Part shown: positions 14,097 through 22,141 of the stretch, piece by piece
Numbering within the stretch: the first letter of the stretch is position 1
How the letters are laid out: each line of letters begins with the position of its first letter
Source of the DNA: Paenibacillus alvei
GTDB lineage: Bacteria; Bacillota; Bacilli; Paenibacillales; NBRC-103111
Direction of reading: 5' to 3'
Assembly (NCBI GenBank): GCA_945881905.1
Contig: CAMCVV010000021.1
Span: 1 to 39,078 of the forward strand
DNA: 39,078 bases
Translations under genes and position numbers: made by a program
Notes under the pieces: generated by a model
Told to the model about the DNA's origin: nothing
Database searches by the model: none
What the model saw: the letters and a program-made list of their open reading frames with translations, nothing else

Positions 14097-14127
14097 GTTC
14101 TCTTCGAATGGGAAGAGGACTTTTTTT
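14097..14127 (+). terminator. Rho-independent terminator after xerD
   Basis: GTTCTCTTC (14097-14105) pairs with GAAGAGGAC (14112-14120), with one G-U pair, and is followed by seven T. The T tract is reused as the start of the deoB promoter. Confidence 0.85.
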
Positions 14128-14192: not shown

Positions 14193-15368
14193 ATGCGATT
14201 CAAGCGTGTATGTTTGATCGTTCTTGACAGTGTGGGGATCGGGGAACTTCCAGACGCTCTTGCCTATGGAGATCGAGGTGCGCATACATTGGGTCACATT
14301 GCTGAACAAGTGCAGCAATTCCATATTCCACATTTAGCTCATCTTGGGCTCACTCAGATTGAACCCTTGCAAGGTATGAAAGCAAATCAACGACCTTTGG
14401 CATACTATGGTAAAATGGCAGAAATGTCAGTAGGTAAAGATACATTGACAGGTCACTGGGAACTGATGGGTCTTCACGTAAGTATTCCTTTCAAAGTATT
14501 TCCGCAAGGGTTTCCTCGAGCATTGATTAAGGAATTCGAACAAAAGACAGGTCGAGCAGTGATTGGAAACAAAGTAGCATCAGGAACGGAAATCTTACAA
14601 GAGTTAGCTGAAGAACAAAAGCGAACGGGTTCATGGATCGTATACACATCTGCAGACAGTGTATTTCAAATCGCAGCACACGAAGACATCATTCCCTTAC
14701 AAGAATTATACCATGCTTGTGAAATCGCTAGACAACTCACGATGGATGATGAATATGCTGTGGGAAGAGTCATCGCTAGACCTTATGTCGGTAGTCAAGG
14801 TGTTTATCAGCGAACAGCGAATCGTCATGATTATGTAGTTCAACCTCCAGCCAAAACCGTGATGAATCATTTGCAAGATACGCATTATGATGTCATTGCA
14901 ATTGGTAAAATATCTGATATATACGCTAATGAAGGAGTTACACGAAGCATACACACATCGAGTAATCGAGACGGAATCGAGCAAGTGATTCAGACGATGG
15001 CTTGTCCTTTTACAGGATTATGCTTTGCCAACTTGGTAGATTTCGATTCTTTATACGGTCATCGCCGAGATCCACAAGGATATGCCCAAGCATTGATGGC
15101 ATTTGATCAGGAACTACCTCGTATCTTGCAGGGTATACAGCAAAACGACTTATTGATCATTACTGCTGATCATGGCAATGATCCTACGCATAGAGGTACC
15201 GACCATACGCGGGAATACGTACCCTTACTTGTATATAGTCCTTCGTTTCAATCTTCATCATCAATAGGTACACGCGATACTTTTGCGGATGTCGCAGCTA
15301 CCATTGCAGATAATTTCCAAGTGAGGGCTCCGCAGATCGGAACAAGTTTTTTGCAACAATTGAAATAA
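14193..15368 (+). CDS. deoB: Phosphopentomutase
   Basis: Interconverts (deoxy)ribose 1-phosphate and 5-phosphate, linking nucleoside phosphorolysis to central metabolism. It is 391 aa, full length. The alkaline phosphatase-like metal site shows as VLDSVGIGELPDA near the N-terminus and ITADHGNDPT with GTDHTREYVPLL near the C-terminus. The loop with the phosphorylated threonine lies near VGKDTLTGHWE. GGAGGTG just before the ATG is a good ribosome site. It is the first gene of the cluster with the two PNP genes and, later, pdp. Confidence 0.95.
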   Translation: MRFKRVCLIVLDSVGIGELPDALAYGDRGAHTLGHIAEQVQQFHIPHLAHLGLTQIEPLQGMKANQRPLAYYGKMAEMSVGKDTLTGHWELMGLHVSIPFKVFPQGFPRALIKEFEQKTGRAVIGNKVASGTEILQELAEEQKRTGSWIVYTSADSVFQIAAHEDIIPLQELYHACEIARQLTMDDEYAVGRVIARPYVGSQGVYQRTANRHDYVVQPPAKTVMNHLQDTHYDVIAIGKISDIYANEGVTRSIHTSSNRDGIEQVIQTMACPFTGLCFANLVDFDSLYGHRRDPQGYAQALMAFDQELPRILQGIQQNDLLIITADHGNDPTHRGTDHTREYVPLLVYSPSFQSSSSIGTRDTFADVAATIADNFQVRAPQIGTSFLQQLK

Positions 15369-15408: not shown

Positions 15409-16236
15409 ATGTCTTATGCAACAATAACTGCACGTGTAGATGAAGCTGCTGCTTATATCTCGAAATATACAGGAGTTGCACCAGAAATTGGTTTGATTCT
15501 TGGTTCAGGGTTAGGTGTGTTAGCAGATATCATTCAAGATCCACAAACCATTAGTTATGCAAGAATACCTCATTTCCCTGTATCTACAGTTGAAGGCCAT
15601 GCTGGGGAACTCGTGGTAGGTTATGTTAATCACAAAGCTGTGCTCGTGATGAAAGGTAGGTTTCATGCGTATGAAGGCTATCGATCAGATACTGTGGCTT
15701 TCCCTGTGCGCGTAATGAAACAATTAGGCATACATACGATCATGGTGACCAATGCTGCTGGAGGAATTAATGAGTCTTATCGCGTAGGTGATTTGATGGT
15801 CATCGCAGATCATTTGAATATGACAGCAAGTAATCCGTTAATCGGTCCAAATGATTCTGAATGGGGAGTGCGCTTTCCAGATATGTCACAAGCGTATGAT
15901 CAGTCATTGCGAACGATTGCTCACGAAGTTGCTCAAGAGCAAGGGCTAACATTACAAGAAGGCGTCTATGCGGGATTAATAGGTCCATCCTATGAGACAC
16001 CTGCTGAAATCCGTATGCTCAGAGTTCTAGGAGCAGATGCTGTAGGTATGTCGACGGTTCCTGAAGTGCTTGTCGCTCGACATGCAGGTATAAAAGTGTT
16101 AGGATTTTCCTGTATTTCAAATATGGCTGCAGGTATACTCGATCAACCGTTATCCCATGCAGAAGTCATGGAAACTACAGAAAAAGTCAAGCCTGACTTC
16201 CTTAAGCTTGTTCTAGGTATCATACCAAAGTTATAA
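15409..16236 (+). CDS. punA: Purine-nucleoside phosphorylase (6-oxopurine type)
   Basis: Trimeric PNP-I family enzyme that phosphorolyses inosine and guanosine. It is 275 aa. Family landmarks are LILGSGLGVLAD (phosphate site), GRFHAYEGY, VTNAAGGIN, and ADAVGMSTVPEVLVARH. The purine-recognition residues are the canonical ones: Glu196 in GPSYETPAE and Asn238 in SCISNMAAG. A His in LSHAEV corresponds to the residue that contacts the ribose 5'-OH. The ATG at 15409 follows GAGGGGG at 15396-15402. It is followed after 15 nt by a second paralog, so the three genes deoB-punA-punA2 are one operon. Confidence 0.93.
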   Translation: MSYATITARVDEAAAYISKYTGVAPEIGLILGSGLGVLADIIQDPQTISYARIPHFPVSTVEGHAGELVVGYVNHKAVLVMKGRFHAYEGYRSDTVAFPVRVMKQLGIHTIMVTNAAGGINESYRVGDLMVIADHLNMTASNPLIGPNDSEWGVRFPDMSQAYDQSLRTIAHEVAQEQGLTLQEGVYAGLIGPSYETPAEIRMLRVLGADAVGMSTVPEVLVARHAGIKVLGFSCISNMAAGILDQPLSHAEVMETTEKVKPDFLKLVLGIIPKL

Positions 16237-16251
16237 AGAGGTGATTACGCT

Positions 16252-17106
16252 ATGGCTAGTCAAGAACTAGAACATATTCTAAGTGCAACGAACTATATCA
16301 AGAAACAACTTGGAGAATTCACACCACGTATTGGTTTCATCTTAGGTTCTGGTCTTGGTGAATTGGCTGAGCAAGTGACTGAAGCGAAGGTGTTCGATTA
16401 TGCGAACGTACCTTATTTTCCAATGACTTCTGTCGATGGACACATTGGTAAGTGGGTAGCCGGTCAATTCCAAGACCAATCAGTGATTATGATGCAAGGA
16501 CGATTTCATTATTATGAAGGGTATTCGATGAAGAAAATCGTGATGCCCATCTATATGATGAAGCAACTTGGTGTGGAAATTCTGATTGTAACGAATGCTG
16601 CTGGAGGCATAAATGCCTCATTTCAAGCAGGTGATTTAATGCTGATTACTGATCATATCAATCTGACAGGTGACAATCCATTGATAGGCAAACATGATGA
16701 AGCATTAGGCGTTCGTTTCCCGGACATGTCACAAGCCTATGATCCTCGACTGCGTAAGATCGCTCATGATGCTGCCAAAAGTCTGACAAGATCAAAGAAA
16801 CATACGGTCTCCTTAAAAGAAGGGGTGTATGCAGGTATTACAGGTCCAGCGTATCTTACTCCTGCTGAATTACGCATGATTGCACGTATCGGTAGCGATG
16901 CTGTGGGGATGTCAACTGTAGCAGAAGTGATTGCAGCACGTCACGCAGGTATAGCTGTTTTAGGGATCTCTTGCATTACCGATATGGCGATTGCTGATGA
17001 ATTAGAGCCACTTACGCATGAACAAGTCATCGCAATGGCAAATCAAAACAAACCCAAGCTCATTCAACTTCTCAAAGAAATCGTGAAACGTATCGCAGTG
17101 CAATAA
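16252..17106 (+). CDS. PNP-I family paralog with altered purine site
   Basis: Tandem paralog of the preceding gene, 284 aa, slightly longer because of a basic insertion around SLTRSKKHTV. The phosphate site (FILGSGLGELAE), the aromatic loop (GRFHYYEGY), VTNAAGGIN and SDAVGMSTVAEVIAARH are kept, as is the His in LTHEQV. The two residues that select 6-oxopurines differ: the Glu of GPSYET is Leu202 (GPAYLTPAE), and the Asn of SNMA is Asp244 (TDMA). From work on human PNP and MTAP, Asp at the second position favours 6-aminopurines, so adenosine or a related nucleoside is a reasonable predicted substrate. This is inference; a 6-oxopurine enzyme with relaxed specificity is possible. Confidence 0.85.
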   Translation: MASQELEHILSATNYIKKQLGEFTPRIGFILGSGLGELAEQVTEAKVFDYANVPYFPMTSVDGHIGKWVAGQFQDQSVIMMQGRFHYYEGYSMKKIVMPIYMMKQLGVEILIVTNAAGGINASFQAGDLMLITDHINLTGDNPLIGKHDEALGVRFPDMSQAYDPRLRKIAHDAAKSLTRSKKHTVSLKEGVYAGITGPAYLTPAELRMIARIGSDAVGMSTVAEVIAARHAGIAVLGISCITDMAIADELEPLTHEQVIAMANQNKPKLIQLLKEIVKRIAVQ

Positions 17107-17225: not shown

Positions 17226-17609
17226 ATGCAAAAGTGGATATTCTTGACTTTATTTGTACTCGCAGGTGTTTTTGGTTTGAGTGCTTTGTTTGGTGAAATT
17301 GCTTCAAAAGAGTCAGCAAAAGAAGAAGACGAAGCGGTTTCTAGCCAATTAAAAATTGTTGCTACCAATTGGGCTTTCGATCAATCAGCGTATGCACTTC
17401 AATCAGGTGAAGCGACCAAAATATCTTTTGTCAACAAAGAAGGCATTCATGCAATTGAAATTATTGGTGAAGGGGTAGACATTAAATTAGATCGCAACAC
17501 CCCTTCACAGATGGTTACATTTGAAAAGCCTGGCACATATGAAATCATATGCGTACTTCCTTGTGGAGAAGGACATGTTTTAATGGTTTCTACACTTACG
17601 GTTTCGTAA
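17226..17609 (+). CDS. Membrane-anchored CuA-type cupredoxin
   Basis: A 127-aa protein with one N-terminal membrane helix (about residues 4-22, no lipobox cysteine), an acidic linker and a cupredoxin domain facing outside. The full CuA ligand set of cytochrome oxidase subunit II is present: His75 in GIHAIEI, then Cys109, Cys113, His117 and Met120 in ICVLPCGEGHVLM, spaced C-x3-C-x3-H-x2-M exactly as in COX2. It lacks the two-helix N-terminus of true subunit II. Likely an electron carrier or copper-handling protein; no oxidase or copper chaperone gene is nearby. A TAGGAGGG ribosome site precedes the ATG, and a terminator follows, so it may be a single-gene unit within the nucleoside cluster. 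Confidence 0.82.
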   Translation: MQKWIFLTLFVLAGVFGLSALFGEIASKESAKEEDEAVSSQLKIVATNWAFDQSAYALQSGEATKISFVNKEGIHAIEIIGEGVDIKLDRNTPSQMVTFEKPGTYEIICVLPCGEGHVLMVSTLTVS

Positions 17610-17667: not shown

Positions 17668-17781
17668 ATCTTCCACAAAATAGGTATAATCATGAACTGA
17701 TCACATATAGATGCGTTAAGCGTAGGTTAGATGCGTTATGAGGAAGGATGCTTCAAAGCAAATCAAAGGAGGGTTAACTCG

Positions 17782-19083
17782 ATGCGAATGGTAGATCTTA
17801 TTCAAAAAAAACGTCAAGGCTTGGCATGCACACAAACGGAAATCCAAGAAATCGTAAATGGCTTCACGCAAGGGACGATACCTGATTATCAAATGTCGGC
17901 ATGGTTGATGGCGGTATGTATCCAAGGGATGAGTGCAGTTGAAACTTCCCATTTGACCATGGCAATGGCATATTCGGGGCAAGTCATGGATTTATCGGTG
18001 ATTCCTGGCACCAAAGTAGATAAGCATTCTACTGGTGGAGTTGGAGATAAGGTAAGTTTGATTGTAGCTCCGATCATCGCTTATTTAGGAATACCTGTAG
18101 CTAAGATGTCAGGACGTGGGCTCGGTCACACGGGAGGGACAATAGATAAATTAGAGTCGATTCCAGGGTTTCAAACCGAAATGACGCTTGAACAATTTGT
18201 GCAAGCCGTAAGGCAAGTGAACATTGCCATCGTGGCTCAAACCGGAGAATTAGCTCCAGCAGACAAGAAAATGTATGCACTGCGAGATGTGACGGCCACA
18301 GTGGAATCGATTCCTTTAATTGCAAGTTCGATCATGAGCAAAAAAATCGCATCAGGTGCAGATGCAATCGTGCTCGATGTAAAAGTAGGTCGTGGTGCAT
18401 TTATGAAGTCAATTGCAGATGCGAGAGCGTTAGCAACAGCTATGGTGGATATTGGGAAGAATTGTGATCGACAAACCATTGCGATTATCACCGATATGCA
18501 GCAACCGTTAGGTAAAGAAATTGGTAACGCCAATGAAATCAGAGAAGCGATCTGCGTGCTGCAAGGCAAGGGTGAACCCGATTTAACAGAAGTTTGCCTA
18601 GTGATAGCTTCTTATATGGCTGTTTTAGGGGGGGCTTTTCAGCATTTTGCAGAAGCCTATGTAGCGATTAAGGACATCATAGCAAAAGGTGAAGCCCTAG
18701 AAACCTTGCGAACCTTCATTCAACATCAAGGAGGGAATCCTTCCATTGTAGATCAACCGGATCTGCTCTTGCAGGCAGTGTATCAAGTCGAAGTCGCTTC
18801 TATACAATCAGGCTATATTGCGCATATTGATGCACAGCGTATCGGTATTGCTGCGATGATGCTTGGTGCAGGACGAGCCTTGAAAGAAGATCGCATCGAT
18901 CATGCTGTAGGGATTACACTTCATCACAAAATCGGAAGTTGGATGGAAGTAAACCAATCGTTATGCACACTGCACGCCAATAAGCTCGATCTATCAGAAA
19001 TCATGGATGTCGTCATATCAGCCTATTCCTTTACCCAGCAGCAGCCACCTGAAGTGAATGTGATTCACGAAGTGATCTTGTGA
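17782..19083 (+). CDS. pdp: Pyrimidine-nucleoside phosphorylase
   Basis: Phosphorolyses uridine, thymidine and deoxyuridine; member of the thymidine/pyrimidine nucleoside phosphorylase family. It is 433 aa, the standard length. The N-terminal helical domain (MRMVDLIQKKRQG) is followed by the phosphate-binding KHSTGGVGDKVSL and the family signature SGRGLGHTGGTIDKLE. The ATG at 17782 follows AAGGAGGG at about 17766-17773; an in-frame ATG at 17731 lacks a site. It completes the set deoB, PNP and Pdp needed to break down both purine and pyrimidine nucleosides. A terminator upstream means that it probably has its own promoter, which I could not identify. Confidence 0.94.
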   Translation: MRMVDLIQKKRQGLACTQTEIQEIVNGFTQGTIPDYQMSAWLMAVCIQGMSAVETSHLTMAMAYSGQVMDLSVIPGTKVDKHSTGGVGDKVSLIVAPIIAYLGIPVAKMSGRGLGHTGGTIDKLESIPGFQTEMTLEQFVQAVRQVNIAIVAQTGELAPADKKMYALRDVTATVESIPLIASSIMSKKIASGADAIVLDVKVGRGAFMKSIADARALATAMVDIGKNCDRQTIAIITDMQQPLGKEIGNANEIREAICVLQGKGEPDLTEVCLVIASYMAVLGGAFQHFAEAYVAIKDIIAKGEALETLRTFIQHQGGNPSIVDQPDLLLQAVYQVEVASIQSGYIAHIDAQRIGIAAMMLGAGRALKEDRIDHAVGITLHHKIGSWMEVNQSLCTLHANKLDLSEIMDVVISAYSFTQQQPPEVNVIHEVIL

Positions 19084-20577: not shown

Positions 20578-20931
20578 TTGAGCTTGCAAATAGAGTTTGA
20601 ACAAAACAGAAAAGCCCTTATCGTTAGATTAAAAGGTGAACTCGATCACCATACTGCTGAGTCTGTGAGAGCAAGAATGGAAGAAGCGATACTTCAAGGT
20701 GATGCGAAACACTTGATTCTCAGCTTGAAAGAACTCACGTTTATGGACAGTTCTGGACTTGGTGTGATCCTCGGTCGCTATAAACAAATCATAGCCAAAG
20801 GAGGAAGCATGATTATGTGTGATCTGTCACCTGCGGTGTATCGACTTTTTGAATTATCAGGTTTGTTCAAAATTATGACTTTCCAAGATAGTGAAAGTGC
20901 AGCGCTAGCAAGCTTGGAGGTCAACTCATGA
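20578..20931 (+). CDS. spoIIAA: Anti-sigma-F factor antagonist
   Basis: STAS-domain protein whose dephosphorylated form captures SpoIIAB and frees sigma-F in the forespore. It is 117 aa, as in B. subtilis. The phosphorylated serine is Ser58 in [14 protein letters not shown], dephosphorylated by SpoIIE. The start is TTG at 20578, supported by GAAGGAG at 20562-20568. It is the first gene of spoIIAA-spoIIAB-sigF, and its end overlaps the spoIIAB start by 4 nt. Confidence 0.96.
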
Positions 20932-21374
20932 GTGAGAACAATTTCATGCATTTACATTTTGCTAGTCGTTCAGAGAATGAAGCTTTTGCTAGAGCCACGG
21001 TTGCTGCTTTCGTATCACAATTAGATCCGACCTTCGATGAATTAAATGACATCAAGACGGTTGTATCCGAAGCGGTGACCAATGCGATTATACATGGTTA
21101 TACGAATCAGACAGAAGGAATCATTCGAATTCGAACTGAATGGAAAAACAACTCGGTCTATATTACCATTGAAGATGACGGGGTAGGTATTGATAATGTA
21201 GAACTTGCCAAGCAACCTCTATATACGTCAAAACCAGAACTAGAGCGCTCTGGTATGGGATTTACGATCATGGAGAACTTCATGGATCACGTGGAAGTCA
21301 CAAGTGAAGTAGGCGTCGGCACACAAATTATCATGATGAAGAAAATTCAATCAACTCAAGCTTTATACAACTAG
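20928..21374 (+). CDS. spoIIAB: Anti-sigma-F factor and SpoIIAA kinase
   Basis: GHKL-fold serine kinase that holds sigma-F inactive and phosphorylates SpoIIAA. It is 148 aa. The N box is seen in [14 protein letters not shown], the G1 box in [10 protein letters not shown] and the G2 box in [13 protein letters not shown]. Its ATG overlaps the spoIIAA TGA by 4 nt (ATGA), giving coupled translation and near-equal synthesis of the switch partners. GGAGGT lies just upstream. Confidence 0.97.
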
Positions 21375-21382
21375 GAGTCTTT

Positions 21383-22141
21383 ATGATGGATGCTGAATGG
21401 AAGAAAACTTCACACAAATATTTAGATGACCTTGAAGTCAAAAGACTCATTACACTCAGTCAGTCTGGTGACCCAAAAGCAAAAGAAACATTAGTTCATG
21501 CGAATATTCGCTTGGTGTGGTCTGTCGTTCAACGATTCTTGAATCGTGGGTATGAATCAGATGATTTATTTCAAATTGGTAGTATTGGCTTGCTTAAATC
21601 GATAGATAAATTCGATCATTCGTTTAACGTCAAGTTTTCCACCTATGCTGTTCCGATGATCATCGGAGAAATCCAAAGATTCTTGCGAGATGATGGCACA
21701 CTCAAAGTAAGTCGGTCGTTAAAAGAACTAGCCAATAAGATTAGACTCGTAAAAGAAGAATTACAGCTGCTACATGGAAGAAGCCCAACGATCTATGAAG
21801 TGGCTGAGAAACTAGGGATTACCGCGGAAGAAGTAGTCTTCGCACAAGAAGCGAATAAACCCTTGGCTTCCATACATGAAACCGTATATGAAAATGATGG
21901 AGATCCCATCACGCTGATGGACCAAATTGCTGATGATTCACAGGATAAATGGTTCGATAAAATGGTCCTACATGAAGCGATACAAGCTTTATCGAAACGA
22001 GAACGCATTATTATCTTTTTGCGATATTTTAAAGATCATACACAAGCTGAAGTCGCTAGTCGACTAGGTATATCTCAAGTTCAAGTATCTCGACTCGAGA
22101 AAAAAATACTTCAATTGATCAAAAATCAAATTGCACTATAG
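21383..22141 (+). CDS. sigF: RNA polymerase sigma-F factor
   Basis: First forespore-specific sigma factor. It is 252 aa. Region 2 is visible around VHANIRLVWSVVQRFLNRGY, DDLFQIGSIGLLKSIDKFD and KFSTYAVPMIIGEIQRFLRD. Region 3 lies around SRSLKELANKIR, and region 4 with its helix-turn-helix ends in TQAEVASRLGISQVQVSRLE. The start could be ATG at 21383 or 21386; AGGAG at 21373-21377 gives 5- or 8-nt spacing, so the second is slightly favoured. A strong terminator follows, which separates this operon from spoVAA. Confidence 0.96.
   Translation: MMDAEWKKTSHKYLDDLEVKRLITLSQSGDPKAKETLVHANIRLVWSVVQRFLNRGYESDDLFQIGSIGLLKSIDKFDHSFNVKFSTYAVPMIIGEIQRFLRDDGTLKVSRSLKELANKIRLVKEELQLLHGRSPTIYEVAEKLGITAEEVVFAQEANKPLASIHETVYENDGDPITLMDQIADDSQDKWFDKMVLHEAIQALSKRERIIIFLRYFKDHTQAEVASRLGISQVQVSRLEKKILQLIKNQIAL

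Follow-up and report, generated by a model that had tools for sequence, protein, structure and literature searches.

A paralog of the purine nucleoside phosphorylase PunA, encoded directly after punA in a 39,078-nucleotide stretch of the Paenibacillus alvei genome (the window), is very likely an adenosine and deoxyadenosine phosphorylase built on the PNP-I fold that would take the place of DeoD. A sequence-only reading had suggested this role, and the prediction is supported by a genome free of DeoD, by mutual exclusion of the two genes in 263 of 298 genomes of the order, inside genera and among 271 other Bacilli, by a probable precedent in the Thermus thermophilus enzyme TthPNPII, and by the N256D mutant of K. 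lactis PNP (PMC5074518). This kind of enzyme thus has precedent; the new part appears to be a lineage-wide replacement of DeoD together with the misannotation of the paralogs under TIGR01700. Both appear to be undescribed so far, as a literature search that covered few subscription journals found nothing on Paenibacillus PNP pairs.

Base-selecting residues and gene neighbourhood

The paralog, here called copy 2, has an intact open reading frame whose ATG start is preceded by a good Shine-Dalgarno sequence (AAAGAGGTGATT), with 15 bases separating it from the punA stop codon. The relevant features of the window are as follows.

14097..14120 (+): terminator-like hairpin and T run ahead of deoB (consensus match only)
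14193..15368 (+): deoB, phosphopentomutase (TIGR01696, 581 bits, cut-off 341)
15409..16236 (+): punA, canonical PNP-I with Glu195 and Asn237, predicted inosine/guanosine phosphorylase, ATG at 15409
16252..17106 (+): copy 2, PunA paralog with Leu202 and Asp244, predicted adenosine/2'-deoxyadenosine phosphorylase, 284 aa (open reading frame, alignment)
16855..16857 (+): Leu202 codon CTT, at the site of Glu201 in human PNP and Ser178 in MTAP (alignment)
16981..16983 (+): Asp244 codon GAT, at the site of Asn243 in human PNP and Asp220 in MTAP (alignment)
17731..19083 (+): pdp, pyrimidine-nucleoside phosphorylase (NF004747, 584 bits, cut-off 559); an internal ATG at 17783 is an equally possible start

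A promoter and terminator scan, in which all matches to the consensus were weak, found no convincing terminator in the deoB-punA-copy 2 interval, consistent with the three genes forming one transcription unit. The gene order xerD, deoB, punA, copy 2, (a cupredoxin-like gene), pdp and dacF is kept in many relatives. In the window dacF is followed by spoIIAA, spoIIAB and sigF (20578-22141, + strand), which places the nucleoside genes in a conserved Bacillus-type xerD-deoB-punA...dacF-spoIIA neighbourhood. The gene between copy 2 and pdp (17226-17609, + strand) encodes a small membrane-anchored cupredoxin-like protein with the sequence CVLPCGEGHVLM near its end, which fits C-x3-C-x3-H-x2-M, the CuA pattern known from subunit II of cytochrome oxidase, and the gene occupies the same position in five other loci (L052, L056, L061, L062 and L064). 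The earlier proposal that this one locus breaks down all common nucleosides is an overreach, as cytidine would need a cytidine deaminase.

In human PNP, Glu201 pairs with N1-H and N2-H of 6-oxopurines, while Asn243 contacts O6 and N7. Both proteins of the window were aligned with human PNP (289 aa) and MTAP (283 aa), whose reference sequences had the expected lengths. PunA has Glu195 and Asn237 at the two purine-selecting sites, copy 2 has Leu202 and Asp244, and MTAP has Ser178 and Asp220. PunA and copy 2 are 50% identical, and their alignment is gap-free around both sites. The substitutions, their numbering and their coordinates are therefore as the sequence-only reading gave them, and its claim that PunA and copy 2 share the phosphate and ribose landmarks is likewise confirmed by the alignment. 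Copy 2 retains S33, H64, R84, H86, Y88, N115, A116, M220, S221 and H256 (the last three being M219, S220 and H257 in human numbering), so that every phosphate and ribose residue expected of a PNP-I enzyme is present. These include the His at the ribose 5'-OH site (His256, human His257), which had been described as kept, unlike in MTAP. The subunit-crossing residue Phe159 of human PNP is also kept, as F156.

Residues, conservation, gene order, exclusion of DeoD and the lack of alternatives in the genome are direct observations, from which we infer substrate, contacts and pathway direction. Phosphate and ribose would be bound as in PunA by the retained residues. The carboxylate of Asp244 would accept adenine through N7 and its 6-amino group; an Asn in this position would instead contact hypoxanthine or guanine through O6 and N7. 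A neutral residue in place of Glu, here Leu, would tolerate the unprotonated N1 of adenine, and 6-oxopurines would lose their anchor. Of the predicted products, adenine would go to salvage by Apt, and (deoxy)ribose-1-phosphate to DeoB of the same gene cluster, which would convert ribose-1-phosphate into ribose-5-phosphate. Copy 2 would in this way occupy the role of hexameric DeoD in other Bacilli.

Adenosine routes and the distribution of copy 2 and DeoD

The genome that contains the window is 99.6% complete, and the PF01048 superfamily has just three members in it, namely PunA and copy 2 plus an MTA/SAH nucleosidase. A family search of this genome found no DeoD, as the idea of DeoD replacement predicts, and neither adenosine deaminase nor nucleoside hydrolase was found, leaving copy 2 as the sole candidate found for splitting adenosine. 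Apt is present to salvage adenine. Adenine deaminase was considered as another route in this genome and dropped, as nothing scored over the cut-off and the best weak matches were short stretches of other proteins.

If copy 2 is an adenosine phosphorylase, genomes that carry it should not need DeoD. With DeoD presence called over its curated cut-off, the 298 genomes of the order divided into 115 with copy 2 only, 148 with DeoD only, 22 with both and 13 with neither (Fisher p 1e-43, with genomes that are not independent). Within the six genera that contain both states, 155 of 175 genomes carry exactly one of the two genes, compared to 114 on average, and never more than 135, in 20,000 shuffles by a permutation that ignores kinship inside genera. 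The pattern is thus not only a matter of shared descent above the genus level. Among 271 genomes of Bacilli outside the order, 46 have copy 2 only, 192 DeoD only, 5 both and 28 neither.

Genomes with neither gene more often encode adenosine deaminase (9 of 13 in the order vs 84 of the remaining 285, p 0.0045). Counter-evidence to the replacement of DeoD comes from the 22 order genomes with both genes and from four that have neither the paralog, DeoD nor adenosine deaminase, including one with a frameshifted copy 2 (G032) and one small 1.4-Mb assembly (G059). In the frameshifted locus (L052, G032:C1:5743500-5752500), deoB and probably also punA are frameshifted along with copy 2, probably by sequencing errors.

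The gene pair itself is conserved. The search covered sixty relatives of the genome that contains the window, and in the 29 whose pair was read, copy 2 always had Met, Leu or Cys with Asp, beside an adjoining copy 1 with Glu and Asn; copies with intermediate scores and matches across the class gave the same residue picture. The collected sequences comprise 80 with Asp and a neutral residue (Met in 49, Leu in 16, Cys in 11, Ser in 3 and Tyr in 1), 137 with Glu and Asn, and 16 with Glu and Asp. Asp is invariant in the set of 80, which was itself chosen by columns 201 and 243, and the catalytic and phosphate residues of the subfamily are invariant as well. The subfamily extends through Paenibacillales, other Bacilli and some Clostridia, almost always adjoining a Glu/Asn punA, and in the 25 Bacilli loci that were read, a Glu/Asn PunA stands beside every copy 2.

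In a tree of 140 sequences, copy 2 sequences cluster by subfamily, apart from their own PunA neighbours, and the Asn/Asp difference amounts to three changes. This clustering indicates that the paralog is an old and retained Bacillota clade. A recent local tandem duplication was ruled out, as copy 2 sequences group together across genera and families. The columns that separate the Asp plus neutral group from the Glu plus Asn group crowd around the base site (human positions 246-253 and 259, and also 195 and 206 beside 201), in a list that is circular for 201 and 243, the two columns that defined the groups. Such columns, mostly in the loop after Asp244 and near 201, are what would be expected for a changed base preference.

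The 16 sequences with Glu and Asp include a Paenibacillus subclade of copy 2 (g32; L053 and L063), a Clostridium tunisiense copy (L075) and other, single PNPs. The g32 subclade, also seen in L143, L144, L145 and L147, keeps Asp and again has Glu at human position 201, and its place in the tree suggests a reversion. These genomes mostly have no DeoD despite the Glu, which implies that the loss of Glu is not strictly needed. Since Asp is strictly kept, and the Glu site varies and even returns to Glu in one subclade, Asp would be the main determinant, with the loss of Glu tuning specificity. The single PNP-I proteins of the N243D-like type belong to Bacteroidota (L085, L110, L112, L131 and L138), Thermotogota (L115, L118 and L125) and Atribacterota (L092), and the same pair of residues occurs in PDB entries 8swt, 4m1e and 4lna.

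Comparison with known enzymes and alternative functions

The monomer model of copy 2 (pLDDT 93.9) best matched PDB 6tk9, a PNP from T. thermophilus with 42% identity (Z 43.0; rmsd 1.0 across 271 residues), which by profile alignment has Ala for human Glu201 and Asp for Asn243. T. thermophilus has a TthPNPI of 153 kD, assayed with inosine, and a TthPNPII of 179 kD, assayed with adenosine, both hexamers (PMC8073115); TthPNPII has affinity for 6-aminopurines only (PMC11430614). Based on organism, subunit size and oligomer, 6tk9 is very probably TthPNPII, as a 271-residue hexamer fits 179 kD and not the 153 kD of TthPNPI. Copy 2 resembles this enzyme in its PNP-I fold, in a neutral residue replacing Glu201 and in Asp replacing Asn243. 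It differs in lineage and in the neutral residue, which is Ala in Thermus and usually Met, Leu or Cys in the copy 2 subfamily, and it keeps the His at human position 257 where Glu seems to stand in 6tk9. TthPNPII is also a hexamer in solution, and its 6-oxopurine partner is described as another hexameric PNP rather than a tandem PunA.

The Asn to Asp change has been made in the laboratory as well. With N256D, K. lactis PNP went from no activity on adenosine to a kcat/KM of 2.2e6, higher than the 1.6e5 for inosine, presumably with Glu still in place (PMC5074518). An adenosine-active PNP-I enzyme is thus neither impossible nor unprecedented. The engineered N243D of human PNP reportedly accepts adenosine too. 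These are single mutants, whereas the natural copy 2 subfamily has usually lost Glu as well.

A PNP of broad range, splitting adenosine, inosine and guanosine and overlapping PunA, would be a variant of the preferred explanation and not its opposite, and we consider it unlikely, though worth keeping in view. K. lactis N256D retains activity with inosine, xanthosine and guanosine (PMC5074518), and the g32 subclade has Glu alongside Asp. On the other side, 80 of the 96 collected sequences with Asp have lost Glu as well, and part of the Glu plus Asp set belongs to other PNP lineages; a PunA retained beside copy 2 would be needless, and the doubly changed Thermus enzyme is reported to use adenosine only. 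The Bacteroides fragilis PNP 8swt, with Glu and Asp, binds Immucillin-H, a hypoxanthine analogue, so that Asp alone does not exclude 6-oxopurines. As counter-examples to an adenosine role, 8swt, 4m1e and 4lna were dropped; they show that Asp is more widespread than the copy 2 subfamily and are silent on adenosine.

Family models separate copy 2 from other relatives of known specificity. It gives no match at E <= 0.001 to the DeoD model (TIGR00107, cut-off 232 bits), and scores 210.5 bits against that of the xanthosine phosphorylase XapA (TIGR01699, cut-off 370.9) and 101.4 bits against that of MTAP (TIGR01694, cut-off 274.85), which excludes membership of all three. The likeness to DeoD is one of presumed role, phosphorolysis of adenosine and deoxyadenosine, and of an Asp that in DeoD contacts N7 and the 6-amino group; DeoD belongs to another branch of the superfamily, and the two genes are mostly mutually exclusive across genomes. 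MTAP likewise carries Asp together with a small neutral residue at the purine-selecting sites, and copy 2 scores slightly higher than PunA against its model (101 vs 97 bits), which would fit a phosphorylase of 5'-modified adenosines such as methylthioadenosine or 5'-deoxyadenosine. Such an MTAP equivalent is very improbable given a score so far under the cut-off and the ribose 5'-OH His, Val233 in human MTAP, which is present in 79 of the 80 subfamily sequences. Furthermore, the genome already encodes a separate MTA/SAH nucleosidase, and the exclusion partner is DeoD.

Copy 2 does pass TIGR01697 (327.4 bits, cut-off 197.1) and TIGR01700 (331.6 bits, cut-off 293.35), the latter named 'inosine and guanosine-specific', and it shares its fold and phosphate and ribose residues with PNP-I enzymes such as human PNP, the Clostridium perfringens PNP 8swu and the neighbouring PunA, the last two at 48-50% identity. 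Taken at its name, TIGR01700 would make copy 2 a redundant 6-oxopurine PNP serving dosage or regulation, a reading we hold to be still less probable, since the selecting Glu/Asn pair that the name implies is replaced by Leu/Asp, both residues are lost across a conserved clade, and redundancy leaves the DeoD exclusion unexplained. The database name is probably wrong for the copy 2 subfamily. That copy 2 is a catalytically silent partner in mixed oligomers with PunA is scarcely credible: the genes are adjacent and probably co-transcribed, but the catalytic and phosphate residues are all invariant, and three paralogs (L065, L066 and L070) lack a PunA in the roughly 5 kb to each side of them.

Consequences for purine salvage and annotation

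We think it reasonably probable that, across Bacilli and some Clostridia, the PunA-paralog subfamily is adenosine-specific, has been swapped with DeoD in either direction many times, and is annotated throughout as inosine/guanosine-specific, and that the single Glu/Asp PNP-I enzymes of Bacteroidota, Thermotogota and Planctomycetota may handle adenosine too. If this is true, the rule that trimeric PNPs act on 6-oxopurines only would fail for bacteria, the annotation of a large number of proteins in Bacillota would be corrected, and predictions of purine salvage would be altered in Paenibacillus and its kin. The recurrent exchange with DeoD within genera would be a well-replicated instance of a fold taking over the role of another. 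The natural series of residues at position 201 (Met, Leu, Cys, Ser, Tyr and Glu) with a fixed Asp would allow switching between 6-oxo- and 6-aminopurines to be studied in one fold, with the Glu plus Asp copies of g32 as a useful natural test of the role of Glu, and such enzymes may also serve as catalysts for the synthesis of adenine nucleosides.
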